The notes under the pieces: generated by a model
Database searches by the model: none
What the model was told of the DNA's origin: nothing
The model's input: the letters and a program-made list of their open reading frames with translations, nothing else
Shown: piece by piece, positions 49,556 to 54,985 of the stretch
Layout: each line of letters begins with the position of its first letter
Position numbering within the stretch: the first letter of the stretch is position 1
Assembly (NCBI GenBank): GCA_030657355.1
Contig: CP131057.1
Location: forward strand, 517,501 to 581,500
Source of the DNA: Radicibacter daui
Lineage (GTDB): Bacteria > Pseudomonadota > Alphaproteobacteria > Radicibacterales > Radicibacteraceae
Reading direction: 5' to 3'
DNA length: 64,000 bases
Position numbers and translations under genes: made by a program

Positions 49556-50182
49556 TTGGATCTCAGCCTTTATATGCCGCAACTGATTGCCTTCCTGCAG
49601 GTGGTCGTTATCGATCTCGTGCTTGCCGGCGATAATGCTGTGGTGGTCGGCATGGCGGCTGCCGGCCTGCCCAAGGACCAGCGCCTGAAGGCGGTTGGCA
49701 TCGGCATTGCCGTTGCCACCATCGCCCGTATCGTCTTCGCCCTCGCCGCGACCCAGCTTTTGCAAATTCTCGGCCTGCTGCTGGCCGGCGGGTTGCTGCT
49801 GCTCTGGGTTGCCTGGAAGATGTGGCAGGAAATCCGCGCCAGTGTCGGCGACGAGGGCGAGGAAGGGGCAGAAGGGGGCGAGGCCGCGCCGCGCAAGACC
49901 TTCCGCCAGGCAGTGCTGCAGATCGTCATCGCCGACCTTTCCATGTCGCTCGACAATGTGCTGGCCGTGGCCGGTGCAGCGCGCGAGCATTATGTCGTGC
50001 TGGTCATCGGCCTCGTGCTGTCGGTAAGCCTTATGGGCGTGGCAGCCCAGATCATCGCCGGCTTCATCAACAAGCATCGCTGGGCCGTCTATATCGGGTT
50101 CGGTGTGGTGCTCTATGTGGCCCTCAAGATGTGTTACGAGGGCGCGATGGAAGTGGCCCAGGCCACCGGCGTAACCGGATAA
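49556..50182 (+). CDS. TerC/YjbE-family integral membrane protein
   Basis: The product of about 208 residues has six to seven membrane helices with the TerC/YjbE hallmarks VVVIDLVLAGDNAVVVGMAA and the symmetric IVIADLSMSLDNVLAVAGAA; the Asp/Asn pairs bind cations. A charged central loop (GDEGEEGAEGGE) separates the halves. Relatives export manganese or affect metal loading of exported proteins. I start at the TTG at 49556 behind AGAAGGA; the first ATG is six codons later (49574). The 298-base upstream gap contains no manganese riboswitch that I can recognise. Confidence 0.88.
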   Translation: MDLSLYMPQLIAFLQVVVIDLVLAGDNAVVVGMAAAGLPKDQRLKAVGIGIAVATIARIVFALAATQLLQILGLLLAGGLLLLWVAWKMWQEIRASVGDEGEEGAEGGEAAPRKTFRQAVLQIVIADLSMSLDNVLAVAGAAREHYVVLVIGLVLSVSLMGVAAQIIAGFINKHRWAVYIGFGVVLYVALKMCYEGAMEVAQATGVTG

Positions 50183-50299
50183 GCAACCACCCTTCCCTGT
50201 CTGAACGGGGTGGCGGCAACGCAGAAGGCCTTGCCGCCCCGTCCAGAACCGCAGCCCTGCCCTGCACTTCCCGCTATGCCAGCCCCCCTTGCTGAACAT

Positions 50300-50315
50300 C
50301 CTACCTTCTGGTAGG
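50300..50315. promoter_or_regulatory. Palindromic operator, site 1 (tetR-type gene autoregulation)
   Basis: CCTACC-TTCT-GGTAGG is a perfect 6+6 palindrome ending ten bases before the TetR-family start codon. Its 14-base core CTACCTTCTGGTAG recurs exactly at 54031-54044, and related sites lie at 51044 and 53901. Confidence 0.85.
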
Positions 50316-50324
50316 CAGGTTTTT

Positions 50325-50966
50325 ATGCAGACCGTCCAGACAGAAAAAGACCCGCTTCACCTCATCTCCGGCACAGCGGGCCGGATCCTCGACAGCGCAC
50401 AATCGCTCATCCGCGACCGTGGCTATAACGGCTTCAGCTATGCCGACATTGCCGACGTCATCGGCATCCGCAAGGCGAGCATCCACCACCACTTCCCGTC
50501 CAAGACCCAGCTCGGCGAGGCGGTTGTGGCGCGTTACCGGGCAGACGTGGCCCGCGCCATGGCCCAGCTCGATGCCGGGCTGCCAACCGCGCGGGAGCGC
50601 ATCGTCGCGCTGATCAACTACTGGTCAACCTGCATCCGCGACCGCAGCGCCCCTTTCTGTGTCTGCGTCCAGCTGGCTGCCGAATTGCCGGCCTTGCCGG
50701 AGGTGATTGCCGGCGAGGTTCGCCTGCATTTCCGCACCATCACCGACTGGGTCGCCCATACGCTGAAAGCCGGCCAGCGCGACGGTTCCCTCAAGCTGGA
50801 CCGACCTGCCGCTGACGAAGCAGACTGTTTCATCGCCGCCCTCCATGGCGCTCTCATCAGCGCCCGCGCCCTTGGCACCTCACCCGCCGCCGGAGAAAAG
50901 GACGATGCCGGGGCCCGGACTTTCACCTCCATCACCGGAGAGCAACTGAGGCGACTTTCGCCCTGA
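50325..50966 (+). CDS. TetR/AcrR family transcriptional regulator
   Basis: The product of about 213 residues has the TetR helix-turn-helix at residues 38-58 (SYADIADVIGIRKASIHHHF), and the C-terminal ligand domain contains three clustered cysteines, C103, C112 and C114 (FCVCVQLAAEL). The cysteines suggest sensing of electrophiles or oxidants, though they may be structural. I start at the ATG at 50325, just after the operator; a longer frame would include the operator. The same palindrome lies before the MAPEG gene and before the oxidoreductase operon, which defines a local regulon. Confidence 0.93.
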   Translation: MQTVQTEKDPLHLISGTAGRILDSAQSLIRDRGYNGFSYADIADVIGIRKASIHHHFPSKTQLGEAVVARYRADVARAMAQLDAGLPTARERIVALINYWSTCIRDRSAPFCVCVQLAAELPALPEVIAGEVRLHFRTITDWVAHTLKAGQRDGSLKLDRPAADEADCFIAALHGALISARALGTSPAAGEKDDAGARTFTSITGEQLRRLSP

Positions 50967-51043
50967 ACCTCTCCTGAAAGCACCGTTTTCAAGCCTTCTC
51001 CGGCGGCATGCCCGCGCCTGAAAGGCTCTCCTTTAGCGGGCTA

Positions 51044-51059
51044 ACTACCAACTAGTAGA
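51044..51059. promoter_or_regulatory. Palindromic operator, site 2 (MAPEG gene)
   Basis: A-CTACC-AACT-AGTAG-A is a slightly degenerate copy of the TetR-type operator, ending 14 bases before the MAPEG start and overlapping its ribosome site. It best matches the reverse complement of site 3 at 53901-53916. Confidence 0.75.
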
Positions 51060-51073
51060 AAGGCACTCCAATC

Positions 51074-51466
51074 ATGACTGTCGAACTCACCGTACTCAGC
51101 CTGCTCGCCCTCGGCTGTCTCGTTCTGCCGCTGGTCTATTCACCGCTCTATTCAAAACAGGTGGGCAACGCCGGCCTGATGAGTAACCGCGACGATATCC
51201 CGGCTCCCACCGGCGCTGCCGGGCGCGGCCTGCGTGCCCATCGCAATCTCATCGAAAATCTGGTGCCCTTTGCCGTGGCCGTGCTGGTTGCCCACACTCT
51301 GGGCATCAGCAATGGCGTTACAACTGCCGGCGCCTGGCTCTTCCTTGCCGCCCGGCTGGTGCATGCCATCACCTACATCGCCGGCATCAAGGTGGTTCGC
51401 ACCCTGTCCTGGTTCGCCGGCGTGATTGGCACGCTGCTCATCCTGTCGCAGATCTTCTTTGCCTGA
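51074..51466 (+). CDS. MAPEG family membrane protein
   Basis: The 130-residue protein has four predicted membrane helices (LTVLSLLALGCLVLPLVYSP; LVPFAVAVLVAHTLGIS; AGAWLFLAARLVHAITYIAG; FAGVIGTLLILSQIFFA) and the MAPEG motif with Arg and Asn in GRGLRAHRNLIENL. Eukaryotic relatives conjugate glutathione or make eicosanoids; bacterial functions are mostly unknown but often linked to detoxification. The gene lies downstream of the TetR-type gene and has its own copy of the operator, so it is likely derepressed together with the oxidoreductase operon. Confidence 0.92.
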   Translation: MTVELTVLSLLALGCLVLPLVYSPLYSKQVGNAGLMSNRDDIPAPTGAAGRGLRAHRNLIENLVPFAVAVLVAHTLGISNGVTTAGAWLFLAARLVHAITYIAGIKVVRTLSWFAGVIGTLLILSQIFFA

Positions 51467-51472
51467 AGCGCC

Positions 51473-51512
51473 AGCATTACGGCGGCCCTCGAAAGGAGGC
51501 CGCCGTAATGCT
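51473..51512. terminator. Long perfect hairpin between convergent MAPEG and oxidoreductase genes
   Basis: AGCATTACGGCGGCC (51473-51487) and GGCCGCCGTAATGCT (51498-51512) form a perfect 15-base stem with a 10-base loop. There is only a weak T run, but its position seven bases after the MAPEG stop and before the convergent stop suggests a bidirectional terminator. Confidence 0.75.
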
Positions 51513-51523
51513 GCTTTCAGGCG

Positions 51524-52291
51524 TCAGATCCCCGCATACCACTGATATCCCCGGTCTTCCCAATAACCGCCTTTGCCGCCCCACAACCGGCCGAAGCCGT
51601 CGGCGATCTCGATCCGCATCAGATATTTCGCCTGCTTGTATCCGAGCTGCCGCTCCACCCGCAGGCGCAGCGGCGCCCCGTGCCCGACAGTCAGATCGGC
51701 GTTGTTCATGGCATAGGCGAGGATCGTTTGCGGGTGGAAGGCATCGACCAGATCGATGCTCTCATAATATCGCCCGCTGCCATCGAAGCTCTGCTCGAGC
51801 TCGTCCGCACAATAAAAGATGGCATAACGTGCCCCCGGCTTCAGGCCGGCAGCCGTCAGCAGCAATCCCAGCGGCACACCCGTCCATTTTCCGATCGCAC
51901 TCCAGCCCTCGACACAGTCATGCCGGGTAATCTGGGTCCGGGCGGGAAGTTTCTTCAGATCCGCCAGCGACAGCTCCATCGGCCTGTCGACAAGGCCATC
52001 GATCCTGAGCCGCCAGTCGGCGAAATTCCCCTCGGCCAGCCGCGCATAATCTTCACTCTCTGGCCGGCTGGTGCCGTTGACCCGAAAGGTCGGGGAGATA
52101 TCTTTTTCGCCAAACTCCCGCGCCAGTGCGCCGCGCCCCAGCAGCAGGCGCTGTGCCGACAGGGTGAGTTTCCCGGCACCGGTCAGCGCCACCCGGCTTA
52201 CCAGATCGGCGTTCAGGGCGAACGCTGCTGCGCCGGCGCCAAGCGCGCCGCCAGCAAGCAGCAGCCGCCGCGAGAAGGGTTTTTCCGTCAT
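51524..52291 (-). CDS. Tat-exported molybdopterin-dependent oxidoreductase (sulfite-oxidase fold)
   Basis: The 255-residue protein has a twin-arginine signal (FSRRLLLAGGALGAGAAAF) and the sulfite-oxidase-type molybdenum-binding domain, with the metal-ligating cysteine C126 in RHDCVEGWSAIGKWTGVPL. HGAPLRLRVERQLGYKQAKY is the conserved cofactor-binding end. It lacks the dimerisation and cytochrome domains of true sulfite oxidases, like YedY/MsrP. It should fold with cofactor in the cytoplasm and act in the periplasm. The ATG at 52291 overlaps the stop of the cytochrome b gene by four bases, so that membrane protein is probably its electron partner. Confidence 0.93.
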   Translation of the reverse strand: MTEKPFSRRLLLAGGALGAGAAAFALNADLVSRVALTGAGKLTLSAQRLLLGRGALAREFGEKDISPTFRVNGTSRPESEDYARLAEGNFADWRLRIDGLVDRPMELSLADLKKLPARTQITRHDCVEGWSAIGKWTGVPLGLLLTAAGLKPGARYAIFYCADELEQSFDGSGRYYESIDLVDAFHPQTILAYAMNNADLTVGHGAPLRLRVERQLGYKQAKYLMRIEIADGFGRLWGGKGGYWEDRGYQWYAGI

Positions 52292-53142
52292 GATCTGGGC
52301 TCGCGATAGCGGATGGCATACTGCCCGGTGACCATCGAGCGCAGATTGTTCCACGGCCCTGACAGGACGACCATCGCCACATGCACGAAGACAAACAGCG
52401 CCAGCAGGGAGGCCGTCACGAAATGGATTGTGCGTGCCGACTGGCGGCCGCCGAAAAGATCGACGAGCCAGGGGAGCGCCGCATCCATTCCCGGCGACAT
52501 CGTAAGGCCGGTCAGCAGCATCGCCGGCAGCATCAGGAAGATGACGATCAGATAGGTCAGCTTTTGCAGCGCGTTATAGTGGCGGGCGGCATCACCCTCG
52601 GGAAATCTGAGCCGCGCGTGATCGGCAATTTCCCGGGCCAGATGCCTCAGCGAGAATTGCCCGCGTACCGGGGCCAGATTTCGCCGGAAATGCCCGCTGA
52701 GAAAGCTGCTGGAGAGATAGACGAGGCCGTTGAGGACGAAGAACCAGGCAAAGAGGAAATGCCATCCGCGCCCTGCCCCCAGATCCTGGTAGGACGGCAG
52801 GGTTATCCATGCCGGAAAAGCCCGGACGGTCGGCTCACCGTCGCTCCGCGAGACCCCGAGCACACCGGTGGTCGAAAGCTCCGCTTCGCCCGCGCGGATA
52901 AAACCGCTGAGGCCGCTTTCAGTCTCTCTGGCACCAATTGTCAAAACAGCGGGATCGCCGTCGGCGCCATACTGGCCCCAGTAGAGTTCCGGATGAGCGT
53001 TGAAAATCTGCAACCCGCTCATCAGCAGCAGCAAAAGATTAACCGCATTCAGCCAGTGCGTTATGCGCGTGACGAGGGAATGGCGCCGGACAAGCACTGT
53101 CCGGCTTTGCAGGGTGCGGTCCCTGCCGGCCTTGTCTGTCAT
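52288..53142 (-). CDS. Cytochrome b561-type membrane subunit
   Basis: The product of about 284 residues has four main membrane helices with histidines suited to bind two hemes: HSLVTRITHWLNAVNLLLLL, RGWHFLFAWFFVLNG, HYNALQKLTYLIVIFLML and RTIHFVTASLLALFVFVHVA. It resembles the b-subunits of hydrogenases and formate dehydrogenases. It should pass electrons between quinone and the periplasmic molybdoenzyme encoded next. A periplasmic loop follows helix 1 (HPELYWGQYGADGDP). I start at the ATG at 53142 behind GGAGG; a longer frame lacks a site. Confidence 0.93.
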   Translation of the reverse strand: MTDKAGRDRTLQSRTVLVRRHSLVTRITHWLNAVNLLLLLMSGLQIFNAHPELYWGQYGADGDPAVLTIGARETESGLSGFIRAGEAELSTTGVLGVSRSDGEPTVRAFPAWITLPSYQDLGAGRGWHFLFAWFFVLNGLVYLSSSFLSGHFRRNLAPVRGQFSLRHLAREIADHARLRFPEGDAARHYNALQKLTYLIVIFLMLPAMLLTGLTMSPGMDAALPWLVDLFGGRQSARTIHFVTASLLALFVFVHVAMVVLSGPWNNLRSMVTGQYAIRYREPRS

Positions 53143-53254
53143 CTTCAGCCTCCAGATTGCCTGCCGGCAAGGGCCGGCGAAAGAAAGCCGCCGCCAGCCG
53201 GCAAGGTGCACCGGGGACTGGTGCACTCAGGCCGGCCGGCGAGCGGCGTCAGGC

Positions 53255-53890
53255 TCACATCGGCGGGACAACACCATTGGTGCCGACGACCACGCGCCCG
53301 GAAGTCAGCGGGCCGTTGCCCTCCTGCGTGGCGGGGATGAAGACGATCGCGCCGGGAACGAGGTCAGCCGGCGTTGCCGGGGCAAGGGTCACCACCGGGG
53401 CCCCTTCCGGAACCGTTATGGTCTTTTCCTGCCCGTGATAGGTCACGGTCAGAGATTGGCCATCAATGCCCTTCACCGCATTGGCGACAGTGGCATTGGT
53501 CATGTTGCTTTTGGGTTTGAGGTCCCAGGCAAAACTGCCTTCCCCCGCGCCCTTGAGGGCCGGCGGGAAAATCAGCACTTCCAGCGCCCCGTCACCGCCG
53601 GCTTCCTTTGGCAACGACGCGATACCGACATAGTCGCCCGGCTTGATGTCACTCACGCTGGCCCTGGCAACACTGGAGATTTGCCAGCCCTTGGAAAGGG
53701 CCACATCCACCACAGCGCCCTCACGGGATTTTACCTTCAGCACATCGTCGCTGAAACCGACGACTGTGCCCCGGACATTATGGTGTTCAACGGTCGCGGC
53801 CATTGCCGTCGGCGCAGCAACGCTGATTGCGGCAGGAAGGCCCAAAGCGGCGGCGACAACGAACAGGGAAGAAAGCTTGCGAAGCATCAT
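53255..53890 (-). CDS. Exported protein with tandem DUF5666-like beta domains
   Basis: The 211-residue protein has a Sec signal peptide (MMLRKLSSLFVVAAALGLPA, cleavage near AMA). Two similar small beta-barrel-like modules follow: residues about 38-110 (VRGTVVGFSDDVLKVKSREG, IKPGDYVGIASL) and 135-205 (VKGIDGQSLTVTYHGQEKTI, LVPGAIVFIPAT). The fold resembles DUF5666 or OB-like domains; the function is unknown. It is the first gene of the oxidoreductase operon, 112 bases before the cytochrome gene, with two operator sites upstream. It may assist or bind the periplasmic molybdoenzyme. Confidence 0.78.
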   Translation of the reverse strand: MMLRKLSSLFVVAAALGLPAAISVAAPTAMAATVEHHNVRGTVVGFSDDVLKVKSREGAVVDVALSKGWQISSVARASVSDIKPGDYVGIASLPKEAGGDGALEVLIFPPALKGAGEGSFAWDLKPKSNMTNATVANAVKGIDGQSLTVTYHGQEKTITVPEGAPVVTLAPATPADLVPGAIVFIPATQEGNGPLTSGRVVVGTNGVVPPM

Positions 53891-53900
53891 CGAATTTCTA

Positions 53901-53916
53901 CCTACTAGTTGATAGG
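53901..53916. promoter_or_regulatory. Palindromic operator, site 3 (oxidoreductase operon, proximal)
   Basis: CCTACT-AGTT-GATAGG lies ten bases upstream of the minus-strand start at 53890, the same distance as site 1 from its gene. Its reverse complement is close to site 2. Confidence 0.75.
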
Positions 53917-54029
53917 ATTCTGGGGAAAGTTTCTGGCAAAGTTACGCCTTGCAATCAGCCAGTCTTGACCTTGGACCTTATCGCCTCGCAGCCACCTTCA
54001 AATTGAAGCATCGCGACGACCGCTAAATG

Positions 54030-54045
54030 GCTACCTTCTGGTAGG
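54030..54045. promoter_or_regulatory. Palindromic operator, site 4 (oxidoreductase operon, distal)
   Basis: G-CTACC-TTCT-GGTAG-G shares an identical 14-base core with site 1. It lies about 140 bases upstream of the minus-strand operon start and 40 bases after the LysR gene stop, so it probably gives a second binding site for the oxidoreductase operon. Confidence 0.82.
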
Positions 54046-54085
54046 TAGCCCGTCAAGGCAGGGCAAACCGCCCACTATGAGCAGG

Positions 54086-54985
54086 TTAACACCCGGCAAT
54101 TTCCTGCACGAAATCGAGAAAAGCCCGAACCTTCGCCGGCGGCAGGTGCCGGGAAGGATGATAGGCATAAAGCGGATACCGCTCATCGGCCCAGTCTGTC
54201 AGCACCGGCACCAGACGGCCATCCGCAAGCCAGGGCCCGAGCCCGAGGGCAAAGCTCTGGAAAATCCCCTGGCCCGCCACGCAGACAGCGATGGCTGTCG
54301 ATGGGTCATCCATTACGACCCTCCCGGCAATCTTCACCTCCGTCCGCTCACTGCCGCGATGAAATTCCCAGTTGAACGGCCGCCCCGTTGTCGGGTCCCG
54401 GAACAGCAGCGCCTCATGATGCATGAGGTCCTGCGGCGCGCGCGGTACACCATAACGGGCAAGATAATCCGGTGAAGCACAGGTAATGACCGGCGTCTCC
54501 AGCAGCTTGCGGGTAATGAGGGAGGCGACTTCCGGCGGGCCGAAACGCACTGCCACATCCACCCCGCTCATCATCTCTTCCCGATAGTTGCTGACGGTCA
54601 GGTCAAGCTCCAGCAACGGGTAGCGCCCCATCAATTTCGGCAGATGCGGCGCCAGCACCATGCGGGCAAACCAGGGATCAATGGAAACCCGAAGCCGCCC
54701 GCTCACCAGCGCCGCGGCCCCGGCCGCATCGGCCGCCGCCTCCTCCAGACCGGCCAGCAAGGGCACGATCTGCGCATGAAACCGCCGCCCTTCTTCCGTC
54801 AGGGCCACGCTGCGCGGCGTGCGGTCAAAAAGCCTGACTCCCATACGCGCCTCCAGCCGCGCAATCGCCCGGCTGACCCCGGAAGGTGTCAGCCCCAGCA
54901 TCTCGCCCGCCCGCGCAAAATTGCCAGCCTCGGCCACAGCGGCAACCACCCCTGCGCCCGTCAGCAGCCGCGTATCGAAGCTCAT
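54086..54985 (-). CDS. LysR family transcriptional regulator
   Basis: The 299-residue protein has an N-terminal helix-turn-helix (VVAAVAEAGNFARAGEMLGLTPSGVSRAIARLE) and a LysR effector-binding domain with typical VRFGPPEVASLITRKLLETPVI. GGAGG precedes the ATG. It diverges from an NAD(P)-binding NmrA-like gene, and the interval holds a perfect 10+10 inverted repeat. Small-molecule effector unknown. This close group of LysR regulators often controls the divergent oxidoreductase-type gene. Confidence 0.94.
   Translation of the reverse strand: MSFDTRLLTGAGVVAAVAEAGNFARAGEMLGLTPSGVSRAIARLEARMGVRLFDRTPRSVALTEEGRRFHAQIVPLLAGLEEAAADAAGAAALVSGRLRVSIDPWFARMVLAPHLPKLMGRYPLLELDLTVSNYREEMMSGVDVAVRFGPPEVASLITRKLLETPVITCASPDYLARYGVPRAPQDLMHHEALLFRDPTTGRPFNWEFHRGSERTEVKIAGRVVMDDPSTAIAVCVAGQGIFQSFALGLGPWLADGRLVPVLTDWADERYPLYAYHPSRHLPPAKVRAFLDFVQEIAGC

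Follow-up and report, generated by a model that had tools for sequence, protein, structure and literature searches.

The 64,000-nucleotide stretch of Radicibacter daui DNA analysed here (contig CP131057.1, positions 517,501 to 581,500; hereafter the window) carries a gene for a TetR-family repressor and, on the opposite strand, genes for three proteins that we call BETA (an exported tandem barrel protein), CYB (a b561-type membrane cytochrome b) and MoE (a molybdoenzyme of the sulfite oxidase family with a twin-arginine translocation (Tat) type signal). We found that these genes form a conserved unit and that a palindromic operator stands before both tetR and BETA. We consider it moderately likely that the unit, under the control of TetR, repairs methionine sulfoxide in the periplasm during stress by reactive chlorine or electrophiles, with substrate and inducer being the parts that we infer. 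The enzyme core is of a known, barely studied type; the combination with this repressor and barrel protein is new.

The three minus-strand genes lie where a first-pass annotation of the window had placed them: BETA at 53255..53890, CYB at 52288..53142 (PF01292, E 4.8e-24) and MoE at 51524..52291 (PF00174, E 6.4e-36). A gap of 112 bases separates BETA from CYB. CYB and MoE have four bases in common (ATGA, stop plus start) and are therefore probably translated together. Terminator-like hairpins in this region are weak and at chance level (five in 50100-54300 vs 4.1 expected), including in the BETA-CYB gap. On the plus strand, tetR occupies 50325..50966 (Pfam TetR_N, E 5e-12; TetR_C_13, E 1.8e-8). 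The true start codons are probably ATG 50325 for tetR, ATG 53142 for CYB and ATG 52291 for MoE, and the listed starts are probably not real.

To follow the unit across genomes we used BETA alone as bait and examined all 80 loci that held the best 80 of at least 573 confirmed relatives. Close relatives are over-represented in this sample, which includes many closely related Rhizobiaceae strains, each entered as one row, so that the 80 loci are not 80 independent events. Other taxa, as judged from titles and tree labels, include Salinicola, Phytohalomonas, Pseudomonadaceae, Oxalobacteraceae, Alcaligenaceae, Burkholderiaceae and Comamonadaceae. CYB was found at 59 of the loci, MoE at 57 and both at 57; a tetR gene stood upstream at 52, and 35 of these 52 carried both enzyme genes. 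Thus the trio that the first-pass annotation had read as one operon recurs, and its regulator recurs with it. A plasmid of Agrobacterium and another of Variovorax also hold TetR-BETA-b561-MoE with operators. A DUF308 membrane protein is encoded at 36 of the 52 loci with TetR.

A search in the opposite direction, starting from MoE, covered 289 genomes of the same class, among which R. daui is the sole member of its order. Seventy-three matched at E<=1e-15, R. daui counted, and we followed up the 17 closest MoE places outside its genome (E<=5e-35). CYB adjoined MoE in all 17, BETA lay within 5 kb in three, an extracytoplasmic function (ECF) sigma factor gene was present in two and this TetR in none. 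Thus MoE and CYB form the core, with BETA and TetR added on. BETA alone was found in 14 of the 289 genomes at E<=1e-5, again with R. daui included.

The repressor is tied to the other genes by a palindromic pattern, CTACYNWCTRGTAG, which stands before tetR, BETA and a MAPEG-family gene (promoters read by eye); neither the operator nor the MAPEG gene beneath it was part of the first-pass annotation. The copy before tetR (50301..50314, plus strand) is an exact match, CTACCTTCTGGTAG, as is the copy before the MAPEG gene (51045..51058, plus strand), CTACCAACTAGTAG, which ends 15 bases from the MAPEG ATG. The BETA promoter holds two copies with no strand assigned, one adjoining the BETA start (53898..53915; two overlapping one-mismatch matches) and a second further upstream (54031..54048; an exact match and an overlapping match). 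The exact pattern matches three times in the 5,059,753 bases of the genome, each time within the cluster, and we therefore rejected a wide regulon in R. daui. With two mismatches allowed, the window contains 13 matches vs 1.45 expected, a number reached in none of 100 shuffles, and seven of the 13 lie in the cluster. With one mismatch allowed, the genome contains nine matches vs 42 for a backwards control pattern; thus only the exact matches are informative, and the one-mismatch count gives no support alone.

The operator is also conserved, and we propose that TetR binds it. We inspected the upstream DNA of 20 related loci, and most of them showed the palindrome before tetR or before BETA. At no more than one mismatch, it precedes BETA at 47 of the 52 loci with TetR vs six of the 28 without it, and precedes tetR itself at 51 of 52. 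Scrambled patterns scored a mean of 0.21 of the 80 loci, with a maximum of five in 200 tries. Exact matches at a distance of more than 2.6 kb from BETA number two in 860,889 bases. Of 15 genomes behind the related loci, 13 have exact matches. When the open reading frames that start just downstream of the operator were clustered, BETA (78) and TetR (76) formed the two largest clusters of 258 frames, a total that includes antisense frames.

Other features of the operator were seen along the way. The copy at 50301-50314 can also be read as a hairpin with T's behind it, like a terminator, directly before the tetR start. In several Rhizobiales loci (L026, 6378-7006; L027, L030, L033 and L052) the same operator precedes a short FlgD-like (hook-capping) gene near TetR-BETA; the L026 copy matches PF03963 (E 1.4e-20), an unexpected member for an oxidant regulon. 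Further operator-adjacent genes encode DUF6130, SnoaL-like and DUF308 membrane proteins (L052, 4870-5423; L143, 1501-2132; L091, 10402-11032).

TetR has four cysteines, as expected from the earlier description of a cysteine-bearing regulator, and the operator now links it to the trio. Three of them, Cys103, Cys112 and Cys114, are invariant in 53 of 53 sequences and form a C-x8-C-x-C pattern. The nearest solved relative (2g7s, E 2.9e-48) is named merely a TetR-family regulator. The regulator also matches NemR of Escherichia coli (4yze, E 7.9e-9), whose switch for hypochlorous acid (HOCl) consists of the bleach-sensing Cys106 and Lys175 and which responds to quinones and glyoxals besides HOCl, according to the portions of PMC7464077 covered. 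The two proteins have the TetR fold in common, and Cys112 aligns with NemR Cys106, although its reactivity is a prediction; they differ in their target genes, in the C-x8-C-x-C pattern and at the position of Lys175.

The breadth of the NemR response bears on a second reading, which we regard as fairly unlikely: the same regulon would serve against reactive carbon electrophiles (quinones, aldehydes or N-ethylmaleimide-like compounds), and MoE-CYB would reduce a compound that this stress yields, directly or on the side. The MAPEG gene (51074..51466, plus strand; PF01124, E 2.9e-22), a probable regulon member, would fit such a role, as it encodes a membrane protein of a glutathione-transferase-like family and stands under the same operator. 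However, MAPEG is found at none of the 80 related loci and may therefore be a local addition, and the same CYB-MoE pair is found elsewhere with methionine-rich scavengers and with ECF/NrsF or HprR-like regulators, which point to oxidants.

MoE is predicted to be 255 residues long including its signal; numbered from ATG 52291, its twin arginines are residues 8 and 9 and its conserved cysteine is Cys126. Among 61 family rows the arginines are conserved in 95-97%, Cys126 in 100% (61 of 61), Glu128 in 98%, Trp130 in 100% and Ser131 in 97%. This confirms the YedY/MsrP-like core already recognized in the first-pass annotation. The active-site stretch, C-V-E-x-W-S with the molybdenum-ligand cysteine, reads CVEGWS in MoE and CVEAWS in MsrP, and among enzymes of solved structure YedY is the closest (1xdq, E 2e-15). 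MoE also resembles the MsrPQ (YedYZ) system of E. coli in its PF00174 core, its Tat signal and the membrane b-type cytochrome encoded in the same operon.

We nevertheless rejected an ordinary MsrP on the grounds of score, clade and partner; by these sequence measures MoE falls outside MsrP. The NCBIfam MsrP model (PRK05363) gives it 87.5 bits, below the cut-off of 207, whereas the R. daui genome encodes a separate true MsrP (C1, about 3,390,000; 422.8 bits). In a 63-row tree that includes part of the loci and has several unsure long branches, the MoE relatives split from two MsrPs with support of 100/100, and the rows of the ECF type form one clade (100/99). MoE is also shorter than MsrP and has a different regulator. 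Its partner is of the b561 type (PF01292), in line with the first-pass annotation, and not of the Ferric_reduct type. CYB does not significantly resemble MsrQ of E. coli (best E 1.5), and R. daui has a Ferric_reduct gene elsewhere in its genome. CYB His21, 29, 128, 240 and 254 are conserved in 97-100% of 75 rows.

On the evidence of its sequence, MoE instead matches a described subgroup. A review divides group 1 of the sulfite oxidase family into YedY (1A) and YedY-like enzymes (1B), the latter about 30 kDa in size and served by a different cytochrome (Kappler 2008 cited in PMC7759655). Both the size of MoE and its non-MsrQ partner agree with 1B, although the portions of this review covered give no function, BETA or TetR for the subgroup. 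Thus 'uncharacterised', the word used in the first-pass annotation, was too strong for the enzyme core, also because some relatives of MoE-CYB lie beside MXKDX peptides that resemble those of systems for which an HOCl phenotype has been published (PMC8315932, in the parts covered).

The same annotation had proposed an inducible periplasmic reductase or oxidase for a reactive chemical. The reductase half agrees with the repair system that we favour, while the oxidase half was rejected as a main reading on account of the MsrP-like active site (C-V-E-x-W-S). An oxidase pair, with sulfite or a comparable compound as the substrate of MoE and with CYB passing the electrons to the quinone pool, seems to us highly improbable. 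The superfamily is the same, but the SorA and SoxC models give only 62.0 and 61.7 bits, far under their cut-offs of 600 and 420, and the active-site stretch is unlike that of sulfite oxidases. Additionally, the group 1 enzymes are likely all reductases according to the covered part of PMC7759655.

MoE could act on another S-, N- or halogen-oxide, such as chlorite, nitro compounds or small sulfoxides, and have no part in protein repair. The separate clade, the shorter protein and near-invariant residues of its own (such as Cys161 in 98% and Asp163 in 100% of the 61 rows) suit this idea, and MsrP is the sole group member called a sulfoxide reductase in the portions of PMC7759655 covered. We still judge it distinctly unlikely, because the enzyme family is repeatedly paired with MXKDX-type methionine-rich peptides, a pairing that would be difficult to account for if methionine sulfoxide were not a substrate.

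This pairing is seen in sister systems. ECF sigma factor and NrsF genes stand near BETA at ten of the 80 loci, none of which has TetR and all of which have both enzymes. These ten Rhizobiaceae loci have the order MXKDX-type peptide, CYB, MoE, BETA, with divergent NrsF and ECF sigma genes (NrsF of L061: PF06532, E 1.9e-58; sigma factor of L100: Sigma70_r2, E 3.4e-12). The L061 peptide, the one scanned among the ten, scores 56.8 bits against TIGR02953, over the cut-off of 41. A Rahnella plasmid locus combines a two-component system with b561, MoE and an MXKDX peptide that passes the same model; a peptide from an Escherichia plasmid scores 35.7, below the cut-off, and one from Burkholderia contaminans has no match. 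On a plasmid of Sinorhizobium numidicum a two-component system is divergent from BETA-b561-MoE, and its response regulator is 55% identical to E. coli HprR, which is encoded beside msrPQ in E. coli. In one scan for methionine-rich peptides two chance matches (L052 and L102) were set aside, and in another, by a methionine-rich pattern, matches that were not MXKDX were ignored (L174, L181, L043-L045, L069, L081, L089 and the second in L100). The window itself gave no tblastn match to an MXKDX peptide at E<=1e-3, a weak test with a low-complexity query, and NrsF (PF06532) was not found in the R. daui genome.

Published work on related systems, seen in the parts of each source covered, connects them with chlorine stress. 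The sigF/nrsF-yedYZ-mrpX genes of Azospira constitute a methionine cycle (PMC4623255) that scavenges hypochlorite. In Brucella melitensis, bcrXQP is induced by HOCl under the ECF factor BcrS, and its deletion lowers survival of HOCl (PMC8315932). The ten ECF/NrsF/MXKDX loci contain relatives of CYB-MoE in this setting, with BETA as an extra gene; the window differs in having TetR and BETA, and the comparison is by description, not sequence. In Burkholderia cenocepacia, BCAL1105 (exported), BCAL1106 (b561) and BCAL1107 (oxidoreductase) are up 12.7-, 8.3- and 3.4-fold with sodium hypochlorite and 6.8-, 4.1- and 2.7-fold with hydrogen peroxide (H2O2) (PMC2830190). BCAL1106 and BCAL1107 were the most upregulated pair in cystic fibrosis sputum, 90- and 66-fold by array, with a mean of 330-fold for BCAL1107 by quantitative PCR (PMC2559838). 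BCAL1105 has a surface peptide rich in methionine, DAMGHDAMAK (PMC11054960). The B. cenocepacia trio therefore looks like the MXKDX version, and we dropped BCAL1105 as a BETA homologue.

Based on these results, we propose a model for the repair system. TetR would act through the CTACYNWCTRGTAG sites to repress tetR itself, the MAPEG gene and the operon of BETA, CYB and MoE. Reactive chlorine species or another thiol-reactive electrophile may modify Cys112 and its neighbours and thereby free TetR from DNA; we base this step on the cysteine pattern and the alignment with NemR. CYB would then draw on the quinol pool of the membrane for electrons and hand these to periplasmic MoE, a path suggested by its family and by the 17 of 17 gene pairings. 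MoE, which may be MsrP-like in action while belonging to its own YedY-like clade, would reduce methionine sulfoxide in damaged envelope proteins. BETA would be a secreted protective or substrate protein, in the slot that the MXKDX methionine-rich scavenger peptide takes in the sister systems.

Several observations weigh against this model. Position Lys175 of NemR is Arg in 53 of 53 TetRs, and the exact switch of NemR therefore cannot be carried over. MAPEG is no less compatible with the detoxification of electrophiles than with chlorine, and MoE stays below the MsrP cut-off. Six of the 28 loci that lack the TetR still carry the operator before BETA, and only one of the 17 closest MoE relatives in the class has an MXKDX peptide within 5 kb. 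Deletion of bcrXQP leaves survival of H2O2 unchanged (PMC8315932, in the parts covered), whereas the Burkholderia trio answers both oxidants; BCAL1105 looks methionine-rich and not BETA-like, and the Burkholderia and Brucella genes were compared by description. Finally, at 15 loci TetR and BETA occur while MoE and any intact CYB are missing, and a DUF308 gene lies downstream in 14 of them. The count is 15 and not 17, as L067 (a contig end) and L036 were left out. In L036 (8740-9858), a Mesorhizobium metagenome-assembled genome, a fragment of CYB (123 aa at 58% identity) lies between BETA and DUF308, which suggests that the enzyme pair was lost from a once-complete locus.

BETA is the new part of the system. 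The first-pass annotation had described it as an exported tandem DUF5666-like protein, which agrees with our results for the family. An hhalign comparison shows its two halves to be alike (probability 92.5, E 5e-7). Of 14 diverse members of the family, ten match DUF5666 (PF18914) at E<=0.1, the best at 2.9e-6; the window BETA itself does not, and it matches no Pfam family at E<=0.001. An AlphaFold2 model built from 50 aligned sequences (predicted local distance difference test score 74.7, predicted template modelling score 0.66) predicts two small barrels or strand groups that are linked by a weakly predicted loop at 123-133. A Foldseek search with this model gave nothing at E<=0.001. In a second look (VIA) the best match was CusF, with Z-scores of 8.7-8.9, close to the common or noise level by the tool's own warning (root-mean-square deviation 2.5 over 71 residues), and other small barrels reached at most 7.7. 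Like this periplasmic copper chaperone, BETA is exported and modelled as a small barrel; unlike it, BETA is tandem and has no convincing sequence match in the Protein Data Bank, and any metal ligands are hypothetical. All 50 aligned rows have Trp122, Met130 and Met211, and the window BETA has five methionines in 211 residues.

We tentatively suggest, while thinking it more probable that the idea is wrong, that BETA represents a new class of envelope protector that is switched on by a thiol-sensing TetR under reactive chlorine or electrophile stress. It might bind copper or damaged proteins, with Met130 and Met211 kept reduced by MoE. In other genomes BETA is found beside both an MXKDX scavenger and the repair enzyme, and the 15 loci with TetR-BETA but no MoE or intact CYB suggest that it may act without the redox pair.

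This analysis brings three loose ends into one testable unit, namely YedY-like enzymes with b561 partners, a family of exported barrel proteins, and a TetR with a C-x8-C-x-C pattern whose candidate operator can be read directly from sequence. We found nothing on the TetR-BETA-CYB-MoE unit among the literature matches listed, nothing on YedY/MsrP with b561 by that combined term, and only titles unrelated to the unit for DUF5666; the parts of PMC7713065 and PMC11547076 covered contain nothing on the unit. If our reading is true, a second route for the repair of envelope methionine, beside MsrPQ, is present in many bacteria that live in soil or with plants, and in some others.

Some minor observations concern the neighbours and spread of these genes. 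A small membrane protein is encoded near BETA in Bordetella-like and other betaproteobacterial loci (L059, 7268-7768; L066, L088, L096 and L099); in L059, L066 and L088 it sits between TetR and BETA, and the L059 copy has no Pfam match. Relatives of MoE at E<=1e-20 occur in 250 plasmid records, 58 of them from Escherichia. Plasmids of Escherichia, Klebsiella and Shigella carry a relative with 39.6% identity in most rows among the matches listed. On one Escherichia plasmid (L198, 3311-5824) this relative is accompanied by a two-component system, a b561 cytochrome and an MXKDX-like peptide, and this may be a mobile oxidant-resistance locus.

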